This document shows, piece after piece, positions 5,766 to 27,992 of a DNA stretch of 38,733 nucleotides. Every line of letters begins with the position of its first letter. The stretch's first letter is position 1. The position numbers were made by a program, and so were the translations under genes. The stretch covers positions 1-38,733 of the IMG/VR virus record IMGVR_UViG_3300006176_000007; one strand, given 5' to 3'. This stretch comes from a virus. The notes under the pieces are model-generated. The model was not told the origin of the DNA. It did no database searches and was given only the letters and a program-made list of their open reading frames with translations.

Positions 5766-5798
5766 GAAGAAGGGGCCCAACGGAGGAGCCCCTTCTTC
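5766..5798 (-). terminator. Perfect 11-bp hairpin inside the head operon
   Basis: GAAGAAGGGGC at 5766-5776 pairs with its exact complement at 5788-5798 around an 11-base loop. On the minus strand the descending arm ends CCTTCTTC but no U-run follows. It may act as a weak terminator, attenuator or RNA stabiliser between the small basic peptide gene and the genes leading to scaffold and capsid. Confidence 0.5.
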
Positions 5799-5823
5799 TG
5801 GTGGTTCGGATGGTGGAGGCGGG

Positions 5824-5895: not shown

Positions 5896-5900
5896 GGCAA

Positions 5901-6478: not shown

Positions 6479-6492
6479 GCCGAAACGCTACC

Positions 6493-8343: not shown

Positions 8344-8798
8344 CAGCCCTGTCGCTTTCGATCGGCGTAAGCACGCTTGTGCCCTCGCTGGCAAATACGA
8401 CACATTCGCCCGGTCGCCTTCGACCAGTACGTATTTTCCTCGTCGTAAGGATGCCCGGCCGGGCACTCAGTCTTCTCGGCTTCGTGAGCACCAGCCCGGC
8501 CTCGACGGGTGTTGACCAGATTCGTTGCCGGTTCTAGGTGGGCTGGATTGACGCAGAGTCGATGAGGGCAAGTCCGCCCACCCCGACAGGCCTGATCTCG
8601 GTTATGGCACTGATGATCAAGCTGCATCCCCTTGGGCACTGGTCGGACAAGAGTTTCGTAAACGACAGTGTGCGCCAGCCATCTTCGGCCTTCATAGCGC
8701 AACTGCCCATATCCCTGGGCGGTCGGCGGTCGCTTCCACATCCAACAGCCACCCGGCTGGACGTCTACGTTGCTCATCACTTCTCGGAAGGTCTTCAT
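8340..8798 (-). CDS. HNH homing endonuclease (HNH_3 type)
   Basis: 152 residues from ATG 8798, overlapping the upstream stop as ATGA (a second ATG at 8777 is possible). Order of motifs: CWMWKRPPTAQGYGQLR, then LAHTVVYETLV, LDHQCHNRD (first His of HNH), CVNPAHLEP (Asn and last His), then a C-terminal KTECPAGHPYDEENTY...CRIC zinc-binding part. This is the classic free-standing phage HNH layout. An insertion of about 11 residues (ACRGGRTCPHR) separates the two metal-binding blocks. Base composition is lower in GC than the neighbours, suggesting transfer. No intron flanks are evident; the portal frame begins at its stop. Confidence 0.85.
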   Translation of the reverse strand: MKTFREVMSNVDVQPGGCWMWKRPPTAQGYGQLRYEGRRWLAHTVVYETLVRPVPKGMQLDHQCHNRDQACRGGRTCPHRLCVNPAHLEPATNLVNTRRGRAGAHEAEKTECPAGHPYDEENTYWSKATGRMCRICQRGHKRAYADRKRQGC

Positions 8799-9169
8799 GC
8801 CATCGCCTGGTCATGGTTGGCCCGCTTGGTGGCCTCCAGGTCGGCCTCACGGGCGTCGGACCCCCAGCCGTGCAACTCGCCCAGCGCCTCCCCGTCACGG
8901 GAATCGCAGGTGGCCAGAACGCAGTCCATCCCGAGCTTCTTCGACTCCCGCTCCTGGGCCTCGGCCAGAGCCGACTTGAACTGGCCCTCGTTCTCGACGT
9001 AGCGACCGACCACCGGATCCCAACGGGCATAGCTCTTGAGCGAGGCCTTGTCCACCCGGATCGACCAGTTACGCTTGGCCGTCTGGCCACACCGGCACTG
9101 GACGGTGTCCTGGGCAACGTCCTCGACCTCGACCTCCCCACATCTCGGGCAGCGGTAGCTGAACTTCAT
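8795..9169 (-). CDS. Zinc-ribbon protein (FmdB-like N-terminus)
   Basis: 124 residues from ATG 9169. The upstream gene ends in the same ATGA, which fixes this start over an in-frame GTG at 9199. Residues 5-30 form a zinc ribbon (YRCPRCGEVE...VQCRCGQTAKR, two Cys pairs). The rest is a charged helical domain (ESKKLGMDCVLATCDSRDGEA). The layout resembles small FmdB-like phage proteins with a C-terminal helical tail. Role unknown; it sits between terminase and portal and may be a DNA-packaging accessory. Confidence 0.75.
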   Translation of the reverse strand: MKFSYRCPRCGEVEVEDVAQDTVQCRCGQTAKRNWSIRVDKASLKSYARWDPVVGRYVENEGQFKSALAEAQERESKKLGMDCVLATCDSRDGEALGELHGWGSDAREADLEATKRANHDQAMA

Positions 9170-9306
9170 AGCTTCCGAGCATACGGGCAGTGTCGGCACT
9201 CGACGTAGACCGCCCCCGGGATGATGGTCGTGTAGAGGGTAAATCGGCAGACCGGGCAGTGGGGACTGATGAGTTCCGTCTGCCGCTCAATAGACTTCGT
9301 CGACAC
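9166..9306 (-). CDS. 46-residue Com-like zinc-finger protein
   Basis: Short gene from GTG 9306 with GGAGG nine bases upstream, overlapping the last 20 bases of the terminase gene. It carries CPVC at residues 17-20 and CRHC at 37-40, separated by a beta-rich linker (RFTLYTTIIPGAVYVE). That is the spacing of Com/zinc-ribbon proteins; Mu Com is a translational activator. The ATGA overlap with the next gene supports it. Function is inferred only as zinc-binding. Confidence 0.72.
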   Translation of the reverse strand: MSTKSIERQTELISPHCPVCRFTLYTTIIPGAVYVECRHCPYARKL

Positions 9307-11011: not shown

Positions 11012-11177
11012 CGTGAGTTTCTGGGACGACCACGCTGGTATCGTGCGAGGTGCGCTGTTGCGAACAGTGCGAATCGGAAACGGGCACATATGGGAGCCCG
11101 CAGCGACCACAGACCATGCGTCCCCACTCGTCGCGGGCTCCCAGTCCGTTTGGGACGTGTTGGCAGGGGCTTCTCAT
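11004..11177 (-). CDS. 57-residue Cys-rich (zinc-binding) small protein
   Basis: ATG 11177 overlaps the upstream stop as ATGA, and the stop overlaps the terminase start. Cys residues at 5, 23, 26 and 38 (MRSPCQHVPNG, MVCGRCGLPYV, SHCSQQ) suggest one zinc site. No family name recognised; it belongs to the run of tiny zinc-ribbon genes between the terminase subunits. Confidence 0.68.
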   Translation of the reverse strand: MRSPCQHVPNGLGARDEWGRMVCGRCGLPYVPVSDSHCSQQRTSHDTSVVVPETHDA

Positions 11178-11485
11178 GTCCCCACCTTCGACCTGTCTTC
11201 CCAGACGAACTCACCGTCAGCACCGACAGGGCGGTGCATCTTGCACTGGACACACCAGGTAGCCCCATAGAAGCTCGGGTCGCGGGCGTAGGTCTCCGCC
11301 AGGGCCTCGGCCATCCTCGTGGACACCCCACACACCGTGTGGACGTAGCTGCGCCTGACTGGCCGCACGAAGCCCCTACGACGCTCCTCGTCGGAGAGGA
11401 CCAGGTAGACCTCGGCCATCTCGGTCGGTTCCTTGTCAACCCCGTGGGTTAGTCGTGGGTCGCTGCGGTCGCTGGTGGTGCTCAT
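11174..11485 (-). CDS. Conserved phage protein with CxxC and DPSFYGATWCVQC motif
   Basis: 103 residues from ATG 11485 (ATGA overlap). The core GFVRPVRRSYVHTVCG, ALAETYARDPSFYGATWCV and CKMHRPVGADGEFVWED is a pattern I recall from many phage and environmental hypothetical proteins. Cys at HTVCG and the WCVQC pair may bind zinc. Soluble, with no membrane segment. Function unknown. Confidence 0.78.
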   Translation of the reverse strand: MSTTSDRSDPRLTHGVDKEPTEMAEVYLVLSDEERRRGFVRPVRRSYVHTVCGVSTRMAEALAETYARDPSFYGATWCVQCKMHRPVGADGEFVWEDRSKVGT

Positions 11486-11793
11486 CCGAGATGCACGTTG
11501 TCGGGCAGGTTCAGCTCCGTCCGATAGAACTGCACCTCCCGCTCCATGCCATCAGCGATGGCCTCGGTGTACTCCTCCTCGGTGAAGACGCCCTTGTCGA
11601 TGAGGAGACGAGCCAAAGCACCGTGGTCGCTCATGGCACTGTTGATGCCCACACGGAGGTGCTTGGGTGAGCACTCGCCCCGAGGCACATAACCCTCGTC
11701 CGGGTCGCCCACACCCTCTCGGGTCATCTTCAACTTCACACCACTCTGCATGGCGTGAGCCGCAGCCCTATACCGCTCGTTCGCACTATCCAT
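11482..11793 (-). CDS. Conserved phage hypothetical protein
   Basis: 103 residues from ATG 11793, chosen because AAAGGAG lies seven bases upstream. Recognisable phrases are RYRAAAHAMQSGVKLKM, KHLRVGINSAMSDHGALARL and GVFTEEEYTEAIADGMEREV, a pattern common to small helical proteins in actinobacteriophages and environmental phages. Predominantly helical and soluble. Function unknown. Confidence 0.78.
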   Translation of the reverse strand: MDSANERYRAAAHAMQSGVKLKMTREGVGDPDEGYVPRGECSPKHLRVGINSAMSDHGALARLLIDKGVFTEEEYTEAIADGMEREVQFYRTELNLPDNVHLG

Positions 11794-11965
11794 CTGTGCT
11801 CCTTTCACGTTGCCCGTCCGTCCAGACCATCGGTACGACGGCTTGGTGGCGGTCCCCGGGCTCAGTAACAAGGTGCCGCCAGTACGGATAGCCCGCTGGG
11901 TTGGGCTCGTACACCAACGGTTCGCCGCAGACCTCACACCTTGTCTGGGTCATAAATCCACTCAC
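11786..11965 (-). CDS. 59-residue protein with CEVCG zinc-ribbon-like motif
   Basis: GTG 11965 has an ideal AGGAGG at seven-base spacing; an in-frame ATG at 11953 is the alternative. The product starts SGFMTQTRCEVCGEPLVYEP and continues with PYWRHL and HQAVVPMVW. The single CxxC with nearby His residues suggests zinc binding. It ends in an RERSTDG tail, one of the repeated junction tails of this cluster. Confidence 0.65.
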   Translation of the reverse strand: MSGFMTQTRCEVCGEPLVYEPNPAGYPYWRHLVTEPGDRHQAVVPMVWTDGQRERSTDG

Positions 11966-11983
11966 TACTCCACCTCCTCAGTT

Positions 11984-12055
11984 TCACGGACCTCCACCAG
12001 AGCCGACGCCCAGGAGGTATTCGTGCCGACCTCGCCGGTACTTATCGCGCTGCAT
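11984..12055 (-). CDS. Possible 23-residue peptide
   Basis: ATG 12055 is preceded by GAGGAGG at four-base spacing, and the ORF ends in a junction-repeat TGA. The peptide is basic at the N-terminus (MQRDKYRRGRHEYLLG) and Gly-rich at the end. In a second frame a 10-codon mini-ORF starts at the upstream gene's stop and ends at the TGATG here. Either a true micro-protein or the remnant of a decayed cassette gene. Confidence 0.35.
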   Translation of the reverse strand: MQRDKYRRGRHEYLLGVGSGGGP

Positions 12056-12083
12056 CAGCCCTCCTCTGCTCCGGTAGTTTCAC

Positions 12084-12311
12084 TCATATCTCACTGGCCT
12101 CCCAGATTGACGTGGTGTCGGGTCCGGCGATTCGCCAGCACTGGCCACACCGTTTCCAACCCTCCGTATCGGGGGCCTCGACCTCTCCGATGAACCGGAC
12201 GGGCCCCCGACCACAGAGCGCCATGTCGTCGCCGTTCTTCTGGATGTGGACCGTCTCGGGAGCGCCGACATCGGTCCGGTAAGCCTGGCCATAGCTCTCA
12301 AGAATCGGCAT
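12084..12311 (-). CDS. 75-residue protein with LCGR and CGQC motifs
   Basis: ATG 12311 is chosen for GGAG six bases upstream; the ORF remains open to 12359. The product has ETVHIQKNGDDMALCGRG followed by EGWKRCGQCWRIAG, the layout of small phage and actinobacterial zinc-ribbon proteins that start with a VH...LCGR strand pair. The stop overlaps a following mini-ORF. Function unknown. Confidence 0.68.
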   Translation of the reverse strand: MPILESYGQAYRTDVGAPETVHIQKNGDDMALCGRGPVRFIGEVEAPDTEGWKRCGQCWRIAGPDTTSIWEASEI

Positions 12312-12570
12312 TGTCCGCTCCGGTAGTTTCACGCCCATCAGAACGCCCGCCACCGTCACTGAGACAACGACTCACAGGGACCCTGGCACACTCGACCTCG
12401 GTGTAACCCAGACAACAGCGACGTTCAGGTAGAGCCAGACGCCGTTTCTTCTTCCGACCCCATATCGCCTTGGGTGTCTGCTGAACGCCATTGACTTTGT
12501 CCAATCCTCGGTCATGGCGCTTCAACCGCGCCCGTAACCGTCTGGTTTTCAGTTGCTTTCCCTTATTCAC
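12298..12570 (-). CDS. 90-residue strongly basic protein, unknown
   Basis: Probable GTG start at 12570, overlapping the upstream stop; the ribosome-binding site is weak, so the start is uncertain. The N-terminal 50 residues are very rich in Arg and Lys (KTRRLRARLKRHDRGLDK, GRKKKRRLALPERRCC). The C-terminus ends in the shared junction tail GRETTGADNADS. A nucleic-acid-binding role is possible, but the frame could be spurious apart from the 3' end. Confidence 0.45.
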   Translation of the reverse strand: MNKGKQLKTRRLRARLKRHDRGLDKVNGVQQTPKAIWGRKKKRRLALPERRCCLGYTEVECARVPVSRCLSDGGGRSDGRETTGADNADS

Positions 12571-12751
12571 CAGCGGGCACCGTGATACGCAAATCACCCT
12601 TATAGCCCGGAGCGATGGACAGGCTCACCGATTGGAACTCGTCTTGGCGAGCAGCAACGGCATCGACCTGAACCAGGGCCTGTTCCCAGGTGTCGGCCTC
12701 CTGAACTTCGCCTCCCTCGCCCGTAATGACATAGGGTTTATTCACCGTCAT
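12563..12751 (-). CDS. 62-residue acidic small protein, unknown
   Basis: ATG 12751 overlaps the preceding stop as ATGA and follows GGGGAG. The sequence looks well folded: KPYVITGEGGEVQEADTWEQ, then QSVSLSIAPGYKGDLRITV, suggesting a small beta-alpha-beta domain. No Cys. No family recognised. Confidence 0.65.
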   Translation of the reverse strand: MTVNKPYVITGEGGEVQEADTWEQALVQVDAVAARQDEFQSVSLSIAPGYKGDLRITVPAGE

Positions 12752-12942
12752 TCGCTCCCCGCTGCCCCGGTAGTTTCACGGTCGACTTCCTCGACTGTCC
12801 GGGCGATTTGCAGAGCGTGTGTCAGCACGAACGCTGTCTTGGTACGGTCAGCCATCATCTCTCCCGGTTCGGGCGGGTCACACGGCGGGGCATGGTAGGG
12901 ACCTTTGCCACACTCGCCCCCTTCATGTCGAGTCATCACCAT
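12748..12942 (-). CDS. 64-residue small protein with two Cys, unknown
   Basis: ATG 12942 lies two bases after the upstream stop, with GGGAG about ten bases away. The N-terminal part (GGECGKGPYHAPPCDPPEPG) has two Cys and two His. The C-terminal half is a helix (KTAFVLTHALQIARTVEEV) and ends in the junction tail RETTGAAGSE. A later MMADRT start with GGGAG nearby is possible. Confidence 0.58.
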   Translation of the reverse strand: MVMTRHEGGECGKGPYHAPPCDPPEPGEMMADRTKTAFVLTHALQIARTVEEVDRETTGAAGSE

Positions 12943-12944
12943 GA

Positions 12945-13214
12945 CTATTCGCTCCCTTCTGCCTGTGGAGTTTCACGCCCGGCCATCGGGACGGAGTTGT
13001 CGACGTGCCACTGGACGTGGTCTTCGGCAAGTCGTTGCCCCTCGGCTCCGTCTTTGACTTCACTCCACCAGCCGCACGGACAGACAACGTGTCCATGGCC
13101 TCCGGTGAATGTCCCGAGGGGGCCGACAATCAACATGCCGCCATCGGCTGGGTGAATCGCCAACTTACAGGTCGGACAGACCGGTGGACTCTGCACCAAA
13201 ACAGCGTTAGTCAT
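12945..13214 (-). CDS. 89-residue zinc-ribbon protein
   Basis: ATG 13214 with AAAGGGG upstream, overlapping the previous stop by eight bases. Cys pairs CPTC (about residue 13) and CPCG (about 45) flank a Gly-rich strand region (GMLIVGPLGTFTGGHGHVV). They are followed by WWSEVKDG and a helix with HVQWHVDN. One zinc ribbon plus a short helical tail ending in RETPQAEGSE. Function unknown. Confidence 0.7.
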   Translation of the reverse strand: MTNAVLVQSPPVCPTCKLAIHPADGGMLIVGPLGTFTGGHGHVVCPCGWWSEVKDGAEGQRLAEDHVQWHVDNSVPMAGRETPQAEGSE

Positions 13215-13389
13215 CGTCGCCCCTTTCACGCCCGGCGACCTGGCGACGCAGCTTGGCCTTGTGCTGTTCCCCGGCGATGTGCCGAGTCAGCCAGTTGCAC
13301 GCTTCGATATCGGAGAGAGCGTCAGGTGGCTCGGCACCACAGGCACACTTCACCACGGCGTAATGCAACACTTCCTCACAAACCGCCAT
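13207..13389 (-). CDS. 60-residue Cys/His small protein
   Basis: ATG 13389 has GAGGAGG at six-base spacing, which fixes the start inside a longer open frame. The text AVCEEVLHYAVVKCACGAEP, then DIEACNWLTRHIAGEQHKAK, contains four Cys and three His: a probable C2H2-like or ribbon zinc site. It ends in the RERGDDD junction tail. Confidence 0.65.
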   Translation of the reverse strand: MAVCEEVLHYAVVKCACGAEPPDALSDIEACNWLTRHIAGEQHKAKLRRQVAGRERGDDD

Positions 13390-13406
13390 CGTCTGCCTCC
13401 TCGGCT

Positions 13407-13568
13407 TCACGCCCGTCTCGGGACCTGCGGTGCCACACCGGGCGACATGGCACGGTCGTCCCAGGGAGTCCAACCGATGACGTACGCCCACTCCCGGGCC
13501 TCGTTCAGGCGCTCCCGCTCTCCACGAATACGGTGGACCCACTCGGCGACGTGGTAGGTGTCAGCCAC
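13407..13568 (-). CDS. 53-residue Trp-rich small protein, unknown
   Basis: GTG 13568 has GAGG six bases upstream and overlaps the end of the preceding gene. The sequence (MADTYHVAEWVHRIRGERER, WAYVIGWTPWDDRA) is helical and then aromatic, with no Cys. It ends exactly at the repeated CGTGA junction. No family recognised. Confidence 0.6.
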   Translation of the reverse strand: MADTYHVAEWVHRIRGERERLNEAREWAYVIGWTPWDDRAMSPGVAPQVPRRA

Positions 13569-13989
13569 CTTCGGCCTCGCCGGCCACCACCACGAACCTC
13601 GACCGCTCCTGCTCCGGTGTCCCGCTGGGCGCGCCACTCTTCATGGCCTCCAGCTCCTCGGTCAACCGCTCCCGGCCTTCCTTCACGGAGTCCGACACCC
13701 GCTTGGTACGGGCCCTGATCCTCCCCGACATCACCAGGTTCGTGTAGCGGGCCTTCTCGGTGGTGGTGCCCGTCTTCAGCACGTTTCTCACCACGTCGAT
13801 GGCCTGCCACTCGATCTGCTCCAGGAAGTCCTCCATGTCGGCAGTGCCGTACTTCTCCACCCGCAACTTCTTGCGCTGCTTGTCGACCAGGTCTTCGTCC
13901 AACGAGAACACCCGGGCCACGATGCCGACGGGGACGCCCTCTTGCAGCAGAGCGTTCACGGTGTAGGTCAGATCCTTTTCAGTCCACAT
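13561..13989 (-). CDS. Putative terminase small subunit
   Basis: 142 residues from ATG 13989 with GAGG six bases upstream, overlapping the previous stop. The N-terminal part looks like a helix-turn-helix (VNALLQEGVPVGIVARVFSL, DEDLVDKQRKKLRV). It is followed by KYGTADMEDFLEQIEWQAID and a helix-rich TGTTTEKARYTNLVMSGRI, a pattern I associate with small terminase or DNA-recognition subunits of environmental podoviruses. The C-terminal 40 residues are Glu/Arg-rich then Gly-rich. It lies upstream of large terminase but is separated by a dozen tiny genes, which is unusual. Confidence 0.6.
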   Translation of the reverse strand: MWTEKDLTYTVNALLQEGVPVGIVARVFSLDEDLVDKQRKKLRVEKYGTADMEDFLEQIEWQAIDVVRNVLKTGTTTEKARYTNLVMSGRIRARTKRVSDSVKEGRERLTEELEAMKSGAPSGTPEQERSRFVVVAGEAEGG

Positions 13990-14149
13990 CTTCGTCCTCG
14001 ATTATTGTGAGTTCCATCTTCATGGCCGACTCGGCGAACTTGCCCGCCGCTAGAGCATGGCTGGCTTCACTCGGCGGTACGTGGAACACGATGGCCACTC
14101 CTCCACGGGCCACGGTGGTGACCCGGGCCAGTTGCCCGGTGACCGTCAC
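13979..14149 (-). CDS. 56-residue beta-rich small protein, unknown
   Basis: GTG 14149 is preceded by GAGGAG at five-base spacing, directly after the upstream stop. The text TVTGQLARVTTVARGGVAIV, then FHVPPSEASHALAAGKFAES and an acidic tail (IIEDEDVD), suggests a compact beta-strand pair, helix, strand. No family recognised; the acidic end is reminiscent of small DNA-mimic or SSB-like tails, which is speculative. Confidence 0.62.
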   Translation of the reverse strand: MTVTGQLARVTTVARGGVAIVFHVPPSEASHALAAGKFAESAMKMELTIIEDEDVD

Positions 14150-14151
14150 GT

Positions 14152-14643
14152 CTACTCCTCGGCGCTTGCGCCTTGCCACGGGCCGGGGTCGGAACCGCTC
14201 TGCTCCAGCAGATCCAGGTACTCCTGCTGTTTCTCCCTCAATCTTCCCTGTAAGACGGCGCGCTCCTTCAGCGAACGTTGCACTTCTGTCTCCTCCGCTT
14301 CCCGCCGGGTGACTGCCTCGAGCTCCGGCGACAGCGCCATCTGGTCGTACTCCTGCCAGGGATCGTCTGAGGTCTCCTGTATCGGAGAGGAACCGTTCTG
14401 CGAAGTCGGTGTCGAGATCTGCGGATAGACCAGCCCCAGCACCAGCCTCCTCGTCTCCTGTCTCTCCTCCCGCAGCATCTCCCTCATCATCGTCATCATC
14501 GACATCGGGTCGGGCGCCGGCGAGGTTTCCTGAGTCGTACTCGGAGGGGGGGAAGTATTCGTCGACGTAGGACTCAGTTGACGGGCGAACGCCAGGGCCG
14601 CCTCCGACAGGGCCTGAACCAGCACCTTCCAGGGTGTCGTCAT
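14152..14643 (-). CDS. 163-residue coiled-coil protein, unknown
   Basis: ATG 14643 overlaps the helix-turn-helix gene's stop as ATGA. The N-terminal helix (WKVLVQALSEAALAFARQL) is followed by a Ser/Thr/Pro linker (residues 23-48). A Met/Arg/Glu helix (MSMMTMMREMLREERQETRR) and a long C-terminal coiled coil (residues 105-150, RREAEETEVQRSLKERA) complete it. It lies in the terminase-proximal end of the late operon. A packaging, regulatory or scaffold-like role is possible. Confidence 0.62.
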   Translation of the reverse strand: MTTPWKVLVQALSEAALAFARQLSPTSTNTSPPPSTTQETSPAPDPMSMMTMMREMLREERQETRRLVLGLVYPQISTPTSQNGSSPIQETSDDPWQEYDQMALSPELEAVTRREAEETEVQRSLKERAVLQGRLREKQQEYLDLLEQSGSDPGPWQGASAEE

Positions 14644-18203: not shown

Positions 18204-18644
18204 GTGACGACCTACGGTGAATTCGCCAGCCTGATGGCATTGGCCTTCGGTCCGCAGCGCATCGCTTTCACCAAGCAGAACGAACTGGCCATCGTCACCT
18301 GGGCCACCTTCGAAGGGTCGCCGGCGCTGTGCAATCCGCTGGACGACACGCAGCCCATGCCCGGGTCGTGGCCGCTCAAGGGGAATTCTGCTCACGTCCA
18401 GAACTACACGAGCGTGGCCGAGGCGATCGACGCCTACAAGATGACGCTGTCGTTCAACGGTGACGGCTACCCGGCCGTCATGGCGGCCTTTGCCAAGGGG
18501 GACTGCGCCTGTGAGGTCACCGAGGCCATCGCCAACAGCGAGTGGGGTACCTGGTTCCACAACCCGGCCGCCGCCGTGCGGGCCGTCGAGCAGGTGAACG
18601 CCAATTTCAGCGCCTACGCCAACCGGCGCATCAACGGCAGCTAG
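18204..18644 (+). CDS. Lysozyme/transglycosylase-fold protein, endolysin candidate
   Basis: 146 residues from GTG 18204. The pattern NELAIVTWATFEGSPALCNP, LDDTQPMPGS, HVQNYTSVAEAIDAYKMTL and NSEWGTWF matches a lysozyme-like domain that I recall from actinobacteriophage tail and lysis proteins. There a W..EG.GA.NPLNTT block carries the catalytic Glu (here Glu37) and WGT closes the fold. The protein is one domain with no signal peptide or wall-binding part, so it would need a holin. Position after two small membrane proteins supports a lysis role. Its end overlaps the convergent Rad52-like gene by 14 bases. Confidence 0.7.
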   Translation: MTTYGEFASLMALAFGPQRIAFTKQNELAIVTWATFEGSPALCNPLDDTQPMPGSWPLKGNSAHVQNYTSVAEAIDAYKMTLSFNGDGYPAVMAAFAKGDCACEVTEAIANSEWGTWFHNPAAAVRAVEQVNANFSAYANRRINGS

Positions 18645-19173
18645 TCGGACAGGAGTCGTTCCACCAGGGCGAGGCTGGCGCTTCTGGGCTGGCGTTCGTT
18701 GTGCCCTCGTAGATGACCACTCGGCCGAGGCAGGAGTCCTTCGACCCTCCGTTGTAGAGGCTGAGCCCAAACTGGTCGCCGAGGTCCTTGGCGCAGCGCT
18801 TGAGCGCCCCTGAGACAGCCGACTTCATGGCCAGATCGTGGGCGTCAGATCGGCTCGGCTGATTGATGGCGTCGCCCGTCGAGGCATCGTCCTTTACGGT
18901 GACGACGTGGCCTTGGGGGTCACGGATGGTGAGGCGCATATCGCAGCGGTATCCGACCGTCCACCGTGACTTGTTGTCGCCCACGCCTGGCGTCTCGGTC
19001 TCAAAGATGGGCCCCAAGTGGATGATCTCCTTGTCCCAACCCTCAAAACCAAAGATGTGGGTGAGAAACGCTATGACGTCCCAGGCCTCCAGGTAGGCGT
19101 TGCCCTGGGTCTGTTGCACCCGGGTCGTCTGGATGGGCTTGAGCAGAGCATCCCGCTGGATCTGAGTCAGCAC
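18631..19173 (-). CDS. Rad52-type single-strand annealing protein
   Basis: 180 residues from GTG 19173, with GGAGGAG upstream inside the preceding gene's end. Characteristic Rad52/22 text: YLEAWDVIAFLTHIFGFEGW near residues 27-46, RWTVGYRCDMRLTIRDPQGH, then KDDASTGDAI, SDAHDLAMKSAVSGALKRCA and LGDQFGLSLYNGG near 140. This is the DNA-binding annealing domain without a long C-terminal tail. It would anneal complementary strands during phage recombination or concatemer formation. It pairs with the nuclease at 20223-21152 in the same operon, a usual exonuclease/annealing module. Confidence 0.85.
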   Translation of the reverse strand: MLTQIQRDALLKPIQTTRVQQTQGNAYLEAWDVIAFLTHIFGFEGWDKEIIHLGPIFETETPGVGDNKSRWTVGYRCDMRLTIRDPQGHVVTVKDDASTGDAINQPSRSDAHDLAMKSAVSGALKRCAKDLGDQFGLSLYNGGSKDSCLGRVVIYEGTTNASPEAPASPWWNDSCPTSCR

Positions 19174-19928
19174 AGCTCCTCCACGATAAGGCGCTTGAGC
19201 GAGGCGATCTTGTCGCCCTCACGCTGGACCGGCTCGAATAGCGCCACGACCCACCAGCGATCACCCTTCCACTGGCTCGGCGACGTAGTGCCGTGGAGAG
19301 CGTTGGCTGTACAGATCTGGAGCGGTCCCGGGATCTCCTGGAGGAGCCCCGGGCGGGCAGGTTCTCCCTTTCGACCACCGTTGGTCGGGTGGCCGTCCTT
19401 GTCGGAACGCCACAGAGCGAGGACGAGATCCTGGTCCGTCGGCACGTTGGGATGGCTCTTGAACGCGTCCGCCAGGAGTTCGCCGGAGCCGGAGCCGTCG
19501 CCGTAGCCGGAGCCGTCGCCGTAGCCGTAGCCGTAGCCGGAGCCGTCGCCGGAGCCGTCGCCGGAGCCGTCGCCGTCGCCGTCGCCGTAGCCGGAGCCGT
19601 AGCCGGAGCCGTAGCCGGAGCCGTCGCCGGAGCCGTCGCCGTCGCCGTAGCCGGAGCCGTCGCCGTCGCCGTAGCCGGAGCCGTCGCCGGAGCCGTCGCC
19701 GTCGCCGTAGCCGTCGCCGTCGCCGTCGCCGTAGCCGTCGCCGTAGCCGTCGCCGGAGCCGTCGCCGTAGCCGTAGCCGGAGCCGTAGCCGTCGCCGTCG
19801 CCGTCGCCGTAGCCGTCGCCGTAGCCGGAGCCGTCGCCGTAGCCGTCGCCGTAGCCGTCGCCGTAGCCGGAGCCGTCGCCGTCGCCGGAGCCGGGCAGCT
19901 CGCCTACGACCAGGGTCGACTCTGCCAT
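19167..19928 (-). CDS. Gly-X dipeptide repeat protein with conserved C-terminal domain
   Basis: 253 residues from ATG 19928 (GGTGAAGG upstream). After 12 residues (MAESTLVVGELP) come about 68 uninterrupted Gly-Asp, Gly-Ser or Gly-Tyr dipeptides (residues 13-149). A globular end of about 105 residues follows: KSHPNVPTDQDLVLALW, ANALHGTTSPSQWKGDRWWV and VALFEPVQREGDKIASLKRL. I recall that C-terminal pattern after similar GYGDGSG repeats in other phage genomes. Its function is unknown. It is located between a DUF6948-like gene and the Rad52-like gene, in the recombination operon. Confidence 0.75.
   Translation of the reverse strand: MAESTLVVGELPGSGDGDGSGYGDGYGDGYGDGSGYGDGYGDGDGDGYGSGYGYGDGSGDGYGDGYGDGDGDGYGDGDGSGDGSGYGDGDGSGYGDGDGSGDGSGYGSGYGSGYGDGDGDGSGDGSGDGSGYGYGYGDGSGYGDGSGSGELLADAFKSHPNVPTDQDLVLALWRSDKDGHPTNGGRKGEPARPGLLQEIPGPLQICTANALHGTTSPSQWKGDRWWVVALFEPVQREGDKIASLKRLIVEELC
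19482..19892 (-). repeat. Hexanucleotide-type tandem repeat encoding (Gly-Asp/Ser/Tyr)n
   Basis: About 68 units of GGC followed by GAC, TCC or TAC on the minus strand, with no other codon used. The three unit types are shuffled rather than periodic, with some higher-order blocks. The region is prone to slippage and likely varies in length between isolates. It is not a CRISPR array: there are no spacers. Confidence 0.9.
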
Positions 19929-20200
19929 GCCTTCACCGCCTCTTCTGTCGCATCCATGACCGAAGTCACTGACTGGAGAACGATGCGAGGAACACTGGGG
20001 GTGACCTTCGCTCCCTTCGTAGGGCCAGTCGACGCCAGCCCGAGGATTCCCTTGGTCGACGTGGGCCAGTAGACGCACATCTGAGCGTCGGTGATGGCCA
20101 GCGTCTTCTCGGTGTCGACCTGGCCGTCGAGGAACCCGAAGAACACGCCTCGGTGCTCCGTGGTCACAACGACAGGACGGAGCTTCTGCTTCGTTGGCAT
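19904..20200 (-). CDS. Conserved phage protein, DUF6948-like
   Basis: 98 residues from ATG 20200, with AAGGAG upstream. Features: LRPVVVTTEHRGVFFGFLDG, KTLAITDAQMCVYWPTSTKG, then LGLASTGPTKGAKVTPSVPR and a C-terminal SVTSVMDATEEAVKAW ending in PWS. I associate the RGVF.G...A....YW...G..GLA..GP series with DUF6948 phage proteins; the family number is recalled, not checked. A small beta domain of unknown role, next to recombination genes. Confidence 0.75.
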   Translation of the reverse strand: MPTKQKLRPVVVTTEHRGVFFGFLDGQVDTEKTLAITDAQMCVYWPTSTKGILGLASTGPTKGAKVTPSVPRIVLQSVTSVMDATEEAVKAWQSRPWS

Positions 20201-20222: not shown

Positions 20223-21152
20223 TTATCCGGTCGCTTCGATGAGAGATTCAATTTGGACGATGCCGGGCCCGATGCGCACGCAGGCGTCCCGGCAGCGACA
20301 GTAGGCACAATTCCACTGCTTCGGGACGCCTGTGTCGCTCTGGACGTTCTCGGGAGTGAGGGCGATGGACTCCATCTCGTCGCCCACGGCGATGCGGGGC
20401 GGCAGGACCCCGGCCAGCAGTTCCTTGTCGATCATCTCGGCCCGCTCGAGCTCGGCGGTCGCCCAGGGCATGAACTCGGCCCTGGAGTAGTGCCACTCCC
20501 CGCAGATGCGGTCCAGGTCCGTCATATCGACCTTCTCGGCCAGTTGGATCGATACCGCCTCCATGGAGATCAGGCCGATGATGAGCGTGTCGCAGTCGTT
20601 GGCCACGGCGTTGAGCGCCCCCTGCAGCTTGGCGGCGGCCTTGGGCCCGTGCGGGTGGCCCCGCTGGTAGGCCCTGCGGTTGAGCCCCACGGCCTGGTCG
20701 AAGGCGAAGGCGCCCACCGTCTTCAACTCGAAGCAGATGCGGCCCAGTTCGGTGGCGTCGATCACCCCCACCCAGTCGGCGTGGCCCGCCGCCAGGGCAT
20801 CGTCGGCATCGCCTGTGCGGGCGCAGGACACCCCCAGTTGCGAGGTCTTCTCGGCCGTGCCGCCGTAGGTCTCGATGATGGCCGACTGGACGTGATCGTG
20901 GATGAGCGAGCCCAGCCACATGCGGAATTCCCCCGCCACATCGATCGAGGCAGGGTCCTCGGACTCGGGCAGGATGCGCTCCAGGGCGATGGCCCGGGCG
21001 CACTTCCCGGCGTCGGAGTAGCGCACCAGAGTGGGGAAGGCGGTGTCTCTCCGACCTTGTGCGAATGACTCGGCGGCCACGATCTTGGCCAGCACGCCTG
21101 TGAGCACGGGATTCTGGACCGGATAGTCGGTGGGCTTCGTGTACGAAGGCAT
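20223..21152 (-). CDS. PD-(D/E)XK exonuclease with Fe-S cluster (RecB/Cas4-like)
   Basis: 309 residues from ATG 21152, eight bases below a TATACG -10, so probably leaderless. Nuclease core: HADWVGVIDATELGRICFEL KT gives His124, Asp132, Glu142 and Lys144, followed by the helix KAAAKLQGALNAVA with Lys and Gln. Cys51 (SDAGKCARAIAL) and a C-terminal CAYCRCRDAC group (282, 285, 287, 291) look like the four-Cys iron-sulfur site of Cas4/AddB-type nucleases. In a phage with a Rad52-like partner this is expected to resect DNA ends. First gene of the recombination operon. Confidence 0.82.
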   Translation of the reverse strand: MPSYTKPTDYPVQNPVLTGVLAKIVAAESFAQGRRDTAFPTLVRYSDAGKCARAIALERILPESEDPASIDVAGEFRMWLGSLIHDHVQSAIIETYGGTAEKTSQLGVSCARTGDADDALAAGHADWVGVIDATELGRICFELKTVGAFAFDQAVGLNRRAYQRGHPHGPKAAAKLQGALNAVANDCDTLIIGLISMEAVSIQLAEKVDMTDLDRICGEWHYSRAEFMPWATAELERAEMIDKELLAGVLPPRIAVGDEMESIALTPENVQSDTGVPKQWNCAYCRCRDACVRIGPGIVQIESLIEATG

Positions 21153-21160
21153 GTGTTCAG

Positions 21161-21197
21161 CGTATACAGCCGGTGTGACAGCGGTCAAGGTTCCTTG
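21161..21197 (-). promoter_or_regulatory. Recombination-operon promoter with CAAGGAACCTTG operator
   Basis: On the minus strand the palindrome CGCAAGGAACCTTGAC ends in the -35 TTGACC (21188-21183). A 16-base spacer leads to TATACG (21166-21161), eight bases from ATG 21152. The operator covers the -35. Confidence 0.62.
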
Positions 21198-21199: not shown

Positions 21200-21778
21200 T
21201 CAGAACTTCCCGTGGGTGGCAGCACCGATGGCGATGGTGATGAACGGCGAGAGGGCGGCGATGGCCCCGACGAGGTAGAGCCGCCCGTCGGAGGTGTCAC
21301 GCTTCGTCTCGACTGCCCCCGCCTTCTGGCCTTGCTGTTCGTACTGGACCCGACGCAGGTCGGCGATGTCCTTCTGGATGGGTTCCAGAGCGGCCGACAG
21401 AGCGACGGATGCCGCCGTGGCCGCTGCCGCCACCTGAGTCCGCAGGGTCTCGGCCGACGTGGCCACCTGGGCGGCCAGGGTGGACGCCTGCGTGGCCGAC
21501 ACCTCGGCCGCCCGGCTCACGGCTCCAGTGTCCACGGCCCGGATGGCGTCGATGCGGGCCGACTCGGCCTTCCGCAACTCTCCCTCATAGAACGCCCGGA
21601 GAGTTGCCAACTCGTTCACTCGTTGGGCCTCGGCCTCTCGCAGATCGTCCTGCCGTGTGATGGCTGCTGCCACCAGATCGAGCACGTTGGCCGTGGGGTC
21701 GAGCACGGCCCGGCCGAACGAATCGGTCGCCGCTCCGGCCTGCCCGCCCGGATCGTTCTGCCCGCCACCCATGACCAC
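21200..21778 (-). CDS. Coiled-coil protein with C-terminal membrane anchor
   Basis: 192 residues from GTG 21778 (ATG 21772 is an alternative). Phrases DPTANVLDLVAAAITRQDDL, REAEAQRVNELATLRAFYEG, ESARIDAIRAVDTGAVSRAA and ATSAETLRTQVA belong to a pattern I recall from many phage genomes, a long Ala-rich coiled coil. The C-terminus holds a hydrophobic segment (LYLVGAIAALSPFITIAIGA). A membrane-tethered coiled coil could be a spanin-like, holin-like or virion protein. Function not established. Confidence 0.75.
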   Translation of the reverse strand: MVMGGGQNDPGGQAGAATDSFGRAVLDPTANVLDLVAAAITRQDDLREAEAQRVNELATLRAFYEGELRKAESARIDAIRAVDTGAVSRAAEVSATQASTLAAQVATSAETLRTQVAAAATAASVALSAALEPIQKDIADLRRVQYEQQGQKAGAVETKRDTSDGRLYLVGAIAALSPFITIAIGAATHGKF

Positions 21779-21787: not shown

Positions 21788-23254
21788 TCAGGGCACTGCC
21801 GAGCACAGAGCCTTGGACCCGTTGAAGAAGCCTGTCAGCGAGCCCATCGGCGGCGGGTAGGGCGTGTTCACGGGCGTGTAGGTGGAGGCTGATCCCACGA
21901 CTCCACCATAGGGCGGGGAGGACAGGTTGGAGATGAATCCGGCGAAGCAGTCGGTGGACAGGTAGAGGTTCGCCCCGTAGACGGTGCCACCGATGGTGTT
22001 GTTGGTCACGTCGAAGGCCCGCTGCGTGTTGGAGACGCTCGAGCCCAGGGTGAAGACGGAGCTGGACACCGACAGGGTGAAGGGTCCCTGCACCACCGTG
22101 CAGGCACTGCTCGAGCTGAAGCACTTGAACGTGTCGTTGGTGAACCGGAAGTTGCCGGCGGGCAGCGTTCCGCTGTTCGATCCCTCGGGGACGACCTTGA
22201 TGGCGGTGCCCGAGGAGTTGGACCGGGGCGAGACGGCCGTCTGCTGGCAGTCGTTCATCCTGATGTTGCCCGTCCGGGCCACGTTGCTGTTCACCTGGAC
22301 GAAGCCCACGAAGGTGCAGCCCGAGGCGGGGATGCCGTTGAAGTTGCAGGGGCGCCCCGTCACCAGCACGTTGATCGAGCCCATGTTGGCGCCCTCGGAG
22401 TCGTCCTCCCAGTTCCACGATTCCGGCTCACCGGGTGGCCCGAAGGATGTCCCGCAGAAGGTGGCCCCGTTCACCGACTCGAAGCTCACGCTGTCCCGCC
22501 CGCAGCCCGGCGTGTTGCCGGGGATGTTGTGCTCGGCCCCGCTGAAGTTCTCGACCACCAGGTTGGTGGTGCGCACCTGGAAATGTTGGACGTCGGGGTT
22601 GACGGTCAGGCAGTCGCCGTAGGTGTTGTCCACCGACACGTCGTTGATGAAGGTCCCGGCCGTGCCGTTCAGCAGGATGCCGGAGGCGTAGGCCATGGGC
22701 TGGTCGGAGGCCGGGTAGTTGCCCGAGTGGTTGTTGCCCTGGATCTGAAGATCCTCGATGGTGATGGGCACGTTGTTGGACGGGTTCATGGGGAACTGCT
22801 CGGTGAGCACCGGCGGGCCCACGATGTTGCCGTTCTGGTCGGTCCCGTGGCAGTCGGTCCCGGCGGTGTGGTTCTGGCAGGCGTTGTAGAGCTCGGCGTT
22901 CTGGCCGGGGGTGCCCAGGGGATTGCCCTCGTAGGAGATAGGAGCGGTGGACTGCACCTGGTTGATGCCCCCGTTGATCTCGTAGCAGCCATCGGTGGCG
23001 AAGGTGACGATGGTGCCGGCGGCCAGACCTCGGACCACCGATGTGAGCGAGGGGGTGAGGGCGTTGCCGTCTGTCCACAAGAGCGGATTGGCCACGCACT
23101 GGGCGCACTGGTTGGACGCCACGCAGCCGGTGGAGCGGTACATGGTGGGCACGTTGTAGATGGGCAGCCCCGCCCGCACGATCAGCGCCACCGCCACGGA
23201 TGTCACCAGGACGGTGGCGGCGGCGGCCAGCCCGACCTTGCGCTTGGTCGTCAC
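21788..23254 (-). CDS. Membrane-anchored, Cys-rich beta-helix-like protein
   Basis: 488 residues from GTG 23254 (GTGA overlap). A signal anchor follows a basic start: KRKVGLAAAATVLVTSVAVA (residues 4-23). The rest appears exported or displayed: many Cys, Asn and Gly, and repeated beta-helix-like phrases (ITIEDLQIQGNNHSGNYP, INDVSVDNTYGDCLTV, GSINVLVTGRPCNFNG, RFTNDTFKCFSS, TNNTIGGTVYG), typical of parallel beta-helix pectate-lyase-fold proteins. Paired Cys suggest disulfides, hence an extracellular location. A tail fibre would not need a signal anchor, so it may be displayed on the infected cell or be a modified tailspike. Confidence 0.7.
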   Translation of the reverse strand: MTTKRKVGLAAAATVLVTSVAVALIVRAGLPIYNVPTMYRSTGCVASNQCAQCVANPLLWTDGNALTPSLTSVVRGLAAGTIVTFATDGCYEINGGINQVQSTAPISYEGNPLGTPGQNAELYNACQNHTAGTDCHGTDQNGNIVGPPVLTEQFPMNPSNNVPITIEDLQIQGNNHSGNYPASDQPMAYASGILLNGTAGTFINDVSVDNTYGDCLTVNPDVQHFQVRTTNLVVENFSGAEHNIPGNTPGCGRDSVSFESVNGATFCGTSFGPPGEPESWNWEDDSEGANMGSINVLVTGRPCNFNGIPASGCTFVGFVQVNSNVARTGNIRMNDCQQTAVSPRSNSSGTAIKVVPEGSNSGTLPAGNFRFTNDTFKCFSSSSACTVVQGPFTLSVSSSVFTLGSSVSNTQRAFDVTNNTIGGTVYGANLYLSTDCFAGFISNLSSPPYGGVVGSASTYTPVNTPYPPPMGSLTGFFNGSKALCSAVP

Positions 23255-23973
23255 CCGACCCCCCCGGGCAGGGCCTTGATGGCGGTCTCAAGGGCCTGGC
23301 GGTCGAGGGTGTCGTCCCAGTGCGTGACCACCACCACGACCTCCTCGGTGCATTCGGCCTCCCACTGGAGGCTGGCGTCCTGCTGCGATCCCCAGGTCAC
23401 GAAGCGCCTCGAGGCGGGCGTCCAGCCCGACAGGGCCACGAAGTGCCCGAGGTTCTGGTCAGGCTGGACCGAGTCGGTGCCCCAGTCGACCCCCTGCTCG
23501 AACTCACGGGCGTCGGAGTCGGTCAGGTTGACGCCGTAGCCCACGCCGTGGCCGAGGGTGGCGTAGGCCAGCGCCTCCGACAGCGGGCAGGTCCCGTACC
23601 CGAGGCACAGGCCGAGGCTGAAGAGCAGTTGGAACCAGGTCCCGAGGATCACCCCGTCGTCGGCCCCGCCGTTGTAGAGGTCGCAATACTGCGTGTAGGG
23701 CTGGAGCACCTTGTCCAGCGGGAAGGAGACCAGGCAGCGGTTGGAGGCGGCCTCCATGGCCTGGAGGTGGTAGAACCCGGCGTCGGCGCAGTCCGAGTGG
23801 ACGTCGTTGCCGAGCATCCCCCACACGATGGGCAGGCCGTTGGTCAGGTCGGCCGACGGAGCAGGGGTGGGCAGCGGGGCCTTCAGGAAGTCGCCCATGC
23901 GGGGCAGCGGAGCCCCCGTGTGCGGAGGCTTGCGGCCGAGCAGTCCGGCTTGGCGGGGCACAGGCGGGGGCAT
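23251..23973 (-). CDS. Papain/C39-like cysteine-peptidase-fold protein
   Basis: 240 residues from ATG 23973, with GGAGG four bases upstream. After a Pro-rich start comes LPIVWGMLGNDVHSDCADAG, a pattern (W.mlGND..gDC) I recall from actinobacterial phage proteins of papain-like fold. The DC Cys is the candidate nucleophile. GHFVALSGW supplies His, and FVTWGSQQ follows. Middle text has DDGVILGTWFQLLFSLGL. Activity is not certain: it may be a peptidase, an amidase-like cell-wall enzyme or only a structural fold. Placed among tail-fibre genes. Confidence 0.62.
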   Translation of the reverse strand: MPPPVPRQAGLLGRKPPHTGAPLPRMGDFLKAPLPTPAPSADLTNGLPIVWGMLGNDVHSDCADAGFYHLQAMEAASNRCLVSFPLDKVLQPYTQYCDLYNGGADDGVILGTWFQLLFSLGLCLGYGTCPLSEALAYATLGHGVGYGVNLTDSDAREFEQGVDWGTDSVQPDQNLGHFVALSGWTPASRRFVTWGSQQDASLQWEAECTEEVVVVVTHWDDTLDRQALETAIKALPGGVG

Positions 23974-23982: not shown

Positions 23983-26403
23983 TCACACCCCCCACGCCGC
24001 AGTGTAGGCGGCGGCGTAGGTGGCATTTCCGACGTCTTCCAGGTTGTTCGTGGCCCCACCGTCGTCGCTCGACCAGTAGGACTGGTAGAGGGCCGGTGCG
24101 AACGGCGTGTAGTTGTTGGACGGGTTGGCCGGGTCGACCACGTTCTGGCCCTTGATGAGGGTGGACAACTGCGAGATGAAGTTCGGCCCGGTGCTGCCCG
24201 ACGCCCCGGTGCCGGTGCCCCATTCCGGCACGGCCCAGTGCTTGCCGTGCAGCTTGGCCAGGTCGATCCAGGGAGTGAGCTGCTCGAACCAGGCTGTGGG
24301 AAAGCTGTGGTTCATGTACGTGTCGCAGGAGATGATGTCCACCGAGGAGTAGGGGCACCACTGGTCGATGGTGCCGCCGTCCTGGAACAACTGCCCGTTC
24401 GGGCCCTGGTTCTGCACGTTGAAGTCCATCAGGGCGCCCGGGTCCACCGACTTGATGGCGGCCACGATGGCGGTGTAGGCGGAGGCGAAGTCGGCCCCCG
24501 TGGTCTGCGTCCACTCGTTGCCGCCGGAGAAGCCGCCGGGGAAGTTGCCGTTCGCCTCCCACCCGATGCGGTAGATGGTGTTGCCCGCCCCCATCATGTT
24601 CAGACAGGTGGTGGCCACCTCGGAGAACTCGGCGATGTTGGCGTTGACCACCGCCGTGAGTCCGCCGTGCGAGATGGTGCCCGAGAGCATCGGCAACGAC
24701 ATGAGCAGCTTCCAGTTGGCAGGGGGCGCCACGCCGTTCAGCGGGATGAAGTCGCCCAGGGCGGCCCAGGAGCTGCTCGCTCCGTAGGTGGTGGTGGCCT
24801 GAGCGGTGACGGTCTTCCCGCCCGTCGACAGGAACGAGGCCAGCGCCTGGGAGTCCTGGCCGGTGGCGTGGCCCGAGGGGTTGTAGTAGAAGCCGAGCAG
24901 AGGCGACGGCAGGTTGGGCGTGCCGGCCACGGTGATGCCGGTGGCGTTGGCGAAGCCGCCCTCGTCGGTCACCTGGGCCACGAATCCCGAGACGGGGCTG
25001 TAGCAGGCCAGGTCGTACTGGGTGGGGGAGCCGGGCTGGGCCACGCCCGTCACCGACCCGACCACGTAGTTCTGGTTGCCCGTCTGGGCGCAGGGCTTGG
25101 AGTTGATGGCGGCGGCCTGGGCGGCGGCCAGCGACCCGGTGGCGCTGTCGGGGACCAGGAAGATGCTGATGTCCCCGATGCCCGACTGGGTGAACACGGC
25201 CTCGCCCGAGACCTGGGTGGCCCCGGAGATGGTCCGGTTGGCCAGGACGGTGACCGTGTTGGCGGCGACGGTGACGGGAGCCGTGATCCAGGAGCTGGAG
25301 ACCGCGAAGCCCCCACCACCTCCACCCCCGCCGCCGTTGGCCCCTTGCGGTCCCTGGGCACCAGCCGTCCCCTGTGACCCCTGAGCGCCCTGAGCGCCGC
25401 CAGAGGGGCCCTGAGCACCCTGGGCGCCCTGAGCCCCCTGGGTGCCCGCTCCCTGGACCCCCTGGGCGCCCTGAGGGCCCTGGGTGCCAGTAGAGCCCTG
25501 AGAGCCTTGGGCCCCCTGCGCCCCTTGGGCGCCACCGGAGGGGCCCTGGGGACCCTGGGGACCCGCCGGGCCGGTTACTCCCGCCTGGGCCAACGTGACC
25601 CAGTTGCCGCCCCCCCGGTCCCAGATGATGGCCGATGCCTTGGCGGCGACGGTGGCGTAGTCGATGGAGGTCGACGGGGTCAGCGTGAGGGTGGCCGTCC
25701 CGTTGTTGTTGATGAACAGGAGCTGGGCGCTCGTATCGGTCAGGGTCCAGGTGTGCGGGGAGGCGCTGGTGTGCTCCAGGACGAGGTCGGTGGCGAGCGT
25801 CGTGTAGTTCGTGTTCTGGATGGAGGACTTGTCGAGCAGCAACGACCCGAGGAGGTTGAGCGCCCCGCCGATGTTCAGCCCGAGGCCGAAGTCGCTCCCG
25901 TCCTTTGACACAGTGAGCCAGGTGGTGGACGTGGTGGCGATGGCCACGACCATCTGGAACTGTCCGCTGTACTCACCTGTCGGAACGAGGGTGGCCGAGG
26001 AGCCGTTGAGGGTCTGCCCGGCGTTGGGGGCGACCGATCCGGGGTTGGACCCGTTCGTGCCCACCGCCACCATCTGCCCCGGCGTGGGCAAGGTGGGCAG
26101 CGTGACCGTGATGGGCGCCGTGGGCAGCACCATGTCGAAGGCGTTGGCGGTGTAGTCGATGCCCTTGGCGATGGGGTTGAAGGTCATGCCCCCTCCACCC
26201 GACCCCGCCGTCAAGTCGATGATGCCGCCCGGGTAGCCGGTGACGGTGAGGAAGCCATCGGTCGACTCGATGGTGATGGACGCCATGGTCGCCTCGGCGA
26301 AGGCCAGCATGAGCGCCCGCAGCGTGGAATCCGCCGCTGGGGTCCCGCCGATCTGGGCCGTCATCTGGGCCCAGACTTCCTCCAGGCTGATGGGAGTGGC
26401 CAT
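23983..26403 (-). CDS. Collagen-stalked tail fibre with glycosidase-like tip
   Basis: 806 residues from ATG 26403. N-terminal about 270 residues are beta-rich, probably trimeric and virion-attaching. Residues 277-365 are Gly-x-y collagen-like repeats (AGPQGPQGPSGGAQGAQG) ending in nine Gly. The C-terminal 440 residues hold a glycoside hydrolase-like (beta/alpha) barrel of GH26/GH5 type. IYRIGWEANGNFPGG carries Glu616 as the likely acid/base, VDIISCDTYMN follows, and AVPEWGTGTG carries Glu727 as the likely nucleophile. Suggested role: host binding and cutting of surface polysaccharide (depolymerase). The glycosidase call is by motif only. Confidence 0.75.
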   Translation of the reverse strand: MATPISLEEVWAQMTAQIGGTPAADSTLRALMLAFAEATMASITIESTDGFLTVTGYPGGIIDLTAGSGGGGMTFNPIAKGIDYTANAFDMVLPTAPITVTLPTLPTPGQMVAVGTNGSNPGSVAPNAGQTLNGSSATLVPTGEYSGQFQMVVAIATTSTTWLTVSKDGSDFGLGLNIGGALNLLGSLLLDKSSIQNTNYTTLATDLVLEHTSASPHTWTLTDTSAQLLFINNNGTATLTLTPSTSIDYATVAAKASAIIWDRGGGNWVTLAQAGVTGPAGPQGPQGPSGGAQGAQGAQGSQGSTGTQGPQGAQGVQGAGTQGAQGAQGAQGPSGGAQGAQGSQGTAGAQGPQGANGGGGGGGGGFAVSSSWITAPVTVAANTVTVLANRTISGATQVSGEAVFTQSGIGDISIFLVPDSATGSLAAAQAAAINSKPCAQTGNQNYVVGSVTGVAQPGSPTQYDLACYSPVSGFVAQVTDEGGFANATGITVAGTPNLPSPLLGFYYNPSGHATGQDSQALASFLSTGGKTVTAQATTTYGASSSWAALGDFIPLNGVAPPANWKLLMSLPMLSGTISHGGLTAVVNANIAEFSEVATTCLNMMGAGNTIYRIGWEANGNFPGGFSGGNEWTQTTGADFASAYTAIVAAIKSVDPGALMDFNVQNQGPNGQLFQDGGTIDQWCPYSSVDIISCDTYMNHSFPTAWFEQLTPWIDLAKLHGKHWAVPEWGTGTGASGSTGPNFISQLSTLIKGQNVVDPANPSNNYTPFAPALYQSYWSSDDGGATNNLEDVGNATYAAAYTAAWGV
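25309..25575 (-). repeat. Collagen-like Gly-x-y repeat in fibre gene
   Basis: Triplet repeats of Gly-Ala-Gln, Gly-Pro-Gln and similar (residues about 277-365) predict a collagen-type triple helix stalk between attachment domain and enzymatic tip. The sequence resembles the second collagen gene at 28628-29107, so the two may exchange DNA. Confidence 0.85.
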
Positions 26404-26423
26404 CAATACGTCGGCTAAGAGAT

Positions 26424-27992
26424 TTACTGGCCTTCAACGACCCAGGTGGGAGCGTTGGTGTATGTCGGCGTTACTGTTTTATTCGCAGGAACGAAGACCG
26501 AGGCGAACGAGGTCGCCGGGATCACCACGCTGGGTCCATTCTGAATGGCCATCGTGCAGCCGAGAGCACCATCGGTCACGTAGAACATGCGGTCATACGG
26601 CTGGGCCGCTACAGCCACGGTGGAGGCAGGAACGGCGGGGGTCACCACGCCCACCGGGTTGTACGGCACGTTGTTCCGGGCAACATGACCCACGGCGGCG
26701 GCGACGGTCATGGCTCCGCCACCCCAGGTGCCGACGACATTGTTCCCCGAGACCAGGACATTTGAGGCCGTTCCCCGGATGGAGATCCCCACGCTGGCCG
26801 CGGTGGTCACGCCCGTCTTCACGTAGTTTCCTGTGACGATAGCGGCGGCACTCTGCACGGCGATCCCGTCGTTGCCGGTGTCGGTCGTCTGGTACACGAA
26901 GTTGTTGGAGATGAGGCTATCCACATCGCCGAAGGTGCCGATCGAGAAACTGTTATTGGCGTAGATCGAATTGCCCGATACGACACCCTGGTTGCCGTGA
27001 AGGAAGATCCCGTTCAGGCCGCCGGAGGCGGCGCTCGTGATCTTGTTGTTGAGGACGTGGCTGCGGTTGGACTGGCCAGTGGGAGCGAAGGTGTCACCGC
27101 CCGAGTTGCCCTGAGCGATGCCGTAGATCCTCATCTGGGTGATCTGGTTGTGCTCGATGATGGAGTCGTTCCCCAGGTCCATGATGCCCGTGGCGTTGCG
27201 CCCCATCAGGTTGCCGAAGATGTTGGCTCTCGCAACGCCCGCCGAGATGAGGATGCCGTCTGCTCCGCAGTCGGTCACGATGCACGACCGGACGGTCGGA
27301 TTAATGCAGGCGGTGCCGAACTTGACGCCGAAGCCTGCCACGCACTCGATAAACGTGTCCATGATGTAGGGAGAGTCGGAGGAGATGTCGATGGCGTTGT
27401 TCATTCCGTAGAAGTAGCAGCGGAAAATGCGGATAGTGTCGTCGGCGGTGGCGCTGTCGGCGGGCTCGTCATAGATGCCCGTGCCCGTGTTGTTGATCCC
27501 TCCGAAAGTGATCGAGTCGATCTGGATGCCGTGGAGTCGCCCGTTTTGGTCGGGGAACTGCGTCCGGTCGAAGGTGATCCAGTTAGCCCCCGGCGTGGTC
27601 TGCCACAGTTTGGAGATGCCTTGACCGAGCGTGTAGTAGAGGGTGTTAGCAGCCAGGGCGGAGCTCGTCTGAGTCCCGTTCCAAGCCCCGAAGCCGGCGC
27701 CCAGGAGCGTGACGTTCGAGTGCCGCCAGTAGAGCGACGAAGTGAGGAGATAGAGCCCGGCGGGCAGGAAAACGGTCCCCCCGGTCGGGAGGGATCCCAC
27801 ATAATCGAGGGCTGCCTGGATGGCCGCCGTGTCATCGGTCGTACCGTCGCCCGCCGCCCCGAACGTGGGATGTTTAACGTTGTAAACGGCCCCGCCGAAG
27901 TCAACAACGGGCCCCGTGTGCTGGACAGGATAGAGGTCGGTGGTGAGAGGGGGTTCGGTCCCGACCCCGAACCACGTTCCCATGTTCGTCAT
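26424..27992 (-). CDS. Tailspike, pectate lyase-like right-handed beta-helix
   Basis: 522 residues from ATG 27992, immediately after the upstream TAA. Residues about 40-85 carry the Pectate_lyase_3 signature (FGAAGDGTTDDTAAIQAALD, GGTVFLPAGLYLLTSS). This is followed by a long run of beta-helix rungs (FGGINNTGTGIYDEP, SCIVTDCGADGILIS, NSIYANNSFSIGTFG, VLVSGNNVVGTWGG). The C-terminal 80 residues form a separate beta domain. It is expected to bind or degrade host surface glycans. Composition is less GC-rich by eye than neighbouring genes, hinting at acquisition by transfer. Confidence 0.82.
   Translation of the reverse strand: MTNMGTWFGVGTEPPLTTDLYPVQHTGPVVDFGGAVYNVKHPTFGAAGDGTTDDTAAIQAALDYVGSLPTGGTVFLPAGLYLLTSSLYWRHSNVTLLGAGFGAWNGTQTSSALAANTLYYTLGQGISKLWQTTPGANWITFDRTQFPDQNGRLHGIQIDSITFGGINNTGTGIYDEPADSATADDTIRIFRCYFYGMNNAIDISSDSPYIMDTFIECVAGFGVKFGTACINPTVRSCIVTDCGADGILISAGVARANIFGNLMGRNATGIMDLGNDSIIEHNQITQMRIYGIAQGNSGGDTFAPTGQSNRSHVLNNKITSAASGGLNGIFLHGNQGVVSGNSIYANNSFSIGTFGDVDSLISNNFVYQTTDTGNDGIAVQSAAAIVTGNYVKTGVTTAASVGISIRGTASNVLVSGNNVVGTWGGGAMTVAAAVGHVARNNVPYNPVGVVTPAVPASTVAVAAQPYDRMFYVTDGALGCTMAIQNGPSVVIPATSFASVFVPANKTVTPTYTNAPTWVVEGQ

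Follow-up and report, generated by a model that had tools for sequence, protein, structure and literature searches.

Ltp of TP-J34 is a phage-encoded surface exclusion lipoprotein (PMC3952083); few papers on exported exclusion factors were found in the literature. In a survey of Gordonia phage lysis cassettes, Amok gp23 is predicted to be secreted through an N-terminal signal (PMC9671378). Beta-helix tail spikes (PF12708/PF13229) form a further group, of which the genome analyzed here encodes a member at 26424-27992.

The ORF at 21788-23254 has features in common with all three. Like Ltp, its product is phage-encoded and has a predicted surface-exposed domain with an N-terminal anchor; unlike Ltp, it has no lipobox Cys and is encoded among late genes, and no library gave any similarity. 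Amok gp23 is likewise encoded in a lysis region and has a hydrophobic N-terminal signal, which is a likeness of description. Like the beta-helix tail spikes, it is rich in Asn, Gly, Ser and Thr and is encoded in the same late region, but it differs from them in its predicted export signal and 16 Cys and in lacking a profile match or rung enrichment.

The window, that is, the whole stretch of 38,733 bases that was analyzed, is a virus record from environmental DNA and represents an uncultivated phage. It contains head genes of podovirus type:

3242-4213: major capsid protein
6493-8466: portal
9287-11110: terminase
36689-37390: SU10-type adaptor

The capsid protein has 20 relatives with 74-100% identity, and a search with it against genomes found no relatives. 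The contig of one capsid relative (L002) matches window positions 1-14213 at 99.98% identity and stops short of the 21788-23254 gene. Elsewhere in the window, a minus-strand ORF at 19167-20078 (303 aa) is of low complexity, with GYGDGDGS-type repeats, and is either a gene or a repeat array. ARAGORN calls a tRNA-Asn(GTT) at 19082-19165 on the plus strand, antisense to the start of a Rad52-like gene (18631-19173); this call is likely false.

The stretch at 21788-23254 is a genuine ORF, with 488 codons open on the minus strand from 23254 to 21788 and a GTG start. The start codon is preceded by a G-run (CCCGGGGGGGTCGG-GTG) and overlaps by 4 bases (GTGA) with the stop of the 23251-23973 gene. The ORF and its surroundings are as follows:

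20223..21188, minus strand: Cas4-like nuclease (PHROG 1706, E 1.7e-4), the conserved flank of a variable slot
21200..21778, minus strand: p192 (192 aa), with a coiled coil and a C-terminal transmembrane segment; lysis-region marker with 23 relatives
21788..23254, minus strand: Cys-rich ORF (488 aa), predicted to be Sec-exported or anchored, homologue-less in the searches
21791..23170, minus strand: predicted extracytoplasmic domain of this ORF, about 460 residues, 16 Cys and 3 Lys, N/S/T/G-rich
23171..23254, minus strand: predicted signal or anchor of this ORF, residues 1-28, with a basic start followed by 20 hydrophobic residues (half G/A/S/T)
23251..23973, minus strand: putative papain-like (C..H..) peptidase, 240 aa, from motifs; PHROG 19005 (unknown function), E 7e-9
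23983..26406, minus strand: collagen-like fibre with a C-terminal GH26-like glycosidase domain, matching tail fibre PHROGs; last gene of the fibre cluster
26424..27992, minus strand: beta-helix tail spike with profile matches (Pect-lyase_RHGA_epim, Beta_helix), used as positive control

The protein begins with MTTKRK followed by VGLAAAATVLVTSVAVALIV. Its Kyte-Doolittle peak (19-residue span) lies at residue 7 with a value of 2.37. No other gene among the 30 plausible ones checked reaches as high, and this N-terminal value was equalled by 1 of 5000 shuffles. The next peak beyond the first 40 residues is 1.23, with no second hydrophobic segment. Hydropathy and shuffles together reveal the basic n-region, hydrophobic h-region and polar remainder of a Sec-exported or signal-anchored protein, bearing out the basic start and hydrophobic anchor that had been predicted originally. 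Reading by eye suggested two candidate signal peptidase I sites, AVA|L after residue 23 and VRA|G after residue 28. Because the basic-then-hydrophobic N-terminus is the strongest of the 30 genes, is not followed by a second segment and is so rarely matched by shuffles, we accept export or anchoring of this protein, with a remainder of about 460 residues presumably outside, as well supported at the level of sequence.

The 16 Cys lie at residues 44, 50, 53, 90, 126, 135, 215, 251, 267, 303, 313, 336, 378, 385, 436 and 484. They make up 3.3% of the protein, compared with 0.96% (84/8775) across the other phage ORFs (binomial P(>=16) = 2.8e-5). Two small ORFs, 8340-8798 and 8795-9199, have a higher percentage, so the Cys content, while unusual among late genes, has parallels elsewhere in the genome. 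The excess fits an extracytoplasmic protein in which disulfides may form. Thus, the exported Cys-rich domain of the original prediction is well supported as a reading of the N-terminus and the Cys excess; its description of the Cys as paired was generous, with only 50/53, 126/135, 303/313 and 378/385 lying close together.

Beta-helix-like rungs had also been proposed for this domain, and they are not supported. Pfam and NCBIfam profiles gave no match to the protein, sequence searches of the PDB found none, and a search with PF13229 and PF12708 matched the 26424-27992 spike only. Self-alignment revealed no internal repeats. The spike shows enrichment of the IxxNxI rung motif (15 vs 6.6, p=0.001); the 21788-23254 protein does not (6 vs 5.5, p=0.48). 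AlphaFold2 run without relatives gave a pLDDT of 31 for the whole protein and again for residues 150-440, too low to speak for or against a beta-helix. A second, ad hoc motif reached p=0.04 in the 21788-23254 protein; it failed on the positive control and therefore carries no weight.

No relative of the protein was found in IMG/VR contigs, cultured phages or plasmids, in GTDB species genomes (a search for close relatives only), or in the fetched records of related phages, nor did phmmer find one among any of the ORFs of the retrieved loci. Relatives retrieved via the collagen repeats of the fibre were left out as low-complexity matches. The gene is thus a genuine orphan with a definable position, and we infer its biochemical function, since no homologue turned up in any collection.

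The position differs from the one first assigned. The original prediction placed the gene in the phage fibre cluster; the fibre genes stop at 23983, and the ORF lies beyond them, between the putative peptidase gene and p192. The 240-aa peptidase-like protein has a sole relative among those found (L047:9698-10375, 29% identity), which retains the LGND..DC..AG..H, LGH-V and VTWG motifs and is also encoded near p192; from these motifs, the 23251-23973 product is a putative papain-like peptidase. The GH26-like part of the neighbouring fibre occupies 23986-25194 (minus strand) and shares 34% identity with a stand-alone GH26 protein adjoining p192 in contig L052; WE.NGN and EWG motifs are common to both.

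The flanking genes p192 and nuclease connect this locus with the lysis regions of other phages. p192, with its motif DPTxNVxDLVxAAIxRQDDLR, is a widespread phage protein for which the searched libraries gave no firm match; tblastn with p192 against 50,697 phage records returned no match. Near its relatives, Pfam matches over the cut-off comprise GH25 (L048, L064), C39 with Rv2525c-like (L049), NlpC/P60 (L050), Amidase_2 (L054), GH26 (L052), PG_binding (L062) and Rv2525c-like (L068); an Rv2525c-like match in L051 is below the cut-off. The remaining p192-relative neighbours have no Pfam hit or fell outside the scan, so the association with lysins is a tendency and not a rule.

Relatives of the Cas4-like nuclease occur in 3 capsid-related phages and 11 further contigs. 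Read by eye, among the capsid-related phages, the gene right before the nuclease in L025 resembles an actinophage lysin with a DUF346 repeat (DUF346 being below the cut-off), and in L027 two small membrane-protein genes before the nuclease flank a GH25-type lysin-like gene; Pfam found no lysin domain in either lysin-like gene. Amidase-like and small membrane genes lie close by in further nuclease contigs, again by eye. Through p192 and the nuclease, the relative-less 21788-23254 gene therefore shares a neighbourhood that tends to hold lysis-type genes in related phages, and it occupies the spot directly before p192 that is often held by a lysin. Taken together, the gene looks to be situated in a lysis region. 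The peptidase assignment of the 240-aa gene is itself putative, and Pfam found no endolysin among the scanned window ORFs; we therefore infer a lysis cassette here and do not regard it as proven.

Exported genes in such neighbourhoods are not confined to this phage. Near p192 relatives, L046:6054-6800 encodes a GDSL esterase with an N-terminal signal, and L050:9308-10162 encodes a DUF1996 protein that has 8 Cys and an anchor at its N-terminus. Both resemble the 21788-23254 gene in their N-terminal signal and p192-type lysis neighbourhood, and the DUF1996 protein also in being Cys-rich; unlike it, they have recognised domains, and there is no sequence similarity between them and it. These two genes and the Gordonia phage protein make an exported accessory in the lysis region plausible and not unheard of.

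We therefore tentatively favor the reading that the 21788-23254 gene, as part of the lysis region, provides an exported late accessory protein whose role is to bind or cleave a polymer of the envelope; we rate this at a little under an even chance. Late in infection, the host Sec machinery would carry the protein through the inner membrane. The basic N-terminus would stay inside, with the hydrophobic stretch serving as a signal anchor or a cleavable signal, while the Cys-rich domain of about 460 residues would reach the outside, where it could form disulfides. There it would most likely bind or cleave a polymer other than peptidoglycan (a cell-wall or capsular glycan) and so, together with the putative peptidase of the upstream gene, help weaken or free the surface of the cell as lysis and release take place. 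As the searches found no homologue, domain or catalytic motif, it is only the location of the gene that points to an envelope polymer. The glycan modification suggested originally is compatible with this reading.

The original prediction also offered receptor masking, in which the anchored ectodomain would decorate the cell surface and block adsorption of further phages or of released progeny (superinfection exclusion). A large outer domain behind a predicted membrane anchor suits such a function, and phage exclusion surface proteins such as Ltp exist (PMC3952083). Against it, the signal carries no lipobox Cys, the first Cys being residue 44, 18 residues beyond the hydrophobic stretch. Moreover, the ORF overlaps a gene of the late region that has genes of lysis type next to it. 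Exclusion, by contrast, is useful chiefly at early times or in lysogens, and we noticed no lysogeny gene in the window. We consider masking unlikely; the overlap with the putative peptidase gene and the occurrence of p192 relatives in lysis cassettes make an envelope role around lysis or release the likelier of the two.

An auxiliary gene of host origin, whose secreted product would be carbohydrate-active or a stress accessory and would work on polysaccharide outside the infected cell without taking part in lysis, would account for the secreted-type composition. It would also agree with the GH26-like domain on the neighbouring fibre and with the genes for exported GDSL and DUF1996 proteins in similar positions of other phage genomes. 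However, Pfam and NCBIfam detected no carbohydrate-active domain. The close-relative search returned no bacterial relative, and GC by codon position (0.53/0.52/0.93) matches that of the neighbouring phage genes and thus gives no sign of recent capture. We regard an auxiliary gene of this kind as improbable.

The preferred reading of an exported accessory also has to be weighed against a place in the virion, as a minor spike or tail component whose hydrophobic stretch does not serve for export, or is lost because translation begins at Met38. The ORF follows the fibre genes on the same strand, and its low-Lys, N/S/T/G-rich composition also suits fibres. Initiation at Met38 would drop the hydrophobic anchor, but no Shine-Dalgarno-like sequence lies upstream of this codon, in contrast to GTG1 with its G-run and gene overlap. 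The other tail-type genes have 0-6 Cys each against 16 here, and PHROGs gave nothing credible (best E 0.24), with no tail or spike match. The predicted export signal and the cysteines thus make a virion component less likely, and we consider it quite improbable. A signal-arrest-release lysis enzyme, tethered inactive by the 20-residue segment and freed at membrane collapse, is very improbable: the segment is rich in Ala, Ser, Thr and Gly and the gene precedes p192, the place of the endolysin in several relatives, but ordinary signal peptides of high-GC bacteria often have such a composition too, and Pfam and NCBIfam found no muralytic domain in the protein.

The exported accessory favored here may, in a more speculative extension that we think has a rather low chance of being correct, represent a new family of disulfide-stabilised envelope-glycan enzymes that phages of an uncultivated host export via the host Sec machinery, as a third lysis activity beside a peptidase and membrane proteins. 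Receptor masking, if that is what the protein does, would instead make it a novel exclusion factor. The genes for exported GDSL and DUF1996 proteins in similar surroundings suggest a broader class of exported late phage proteins that has received little study. If the 21788-23254 product acts on an envelope polymer at lysis, this would extend the idea that exit from complex-walled hosts takes more than peptidoglycan hydrolases.
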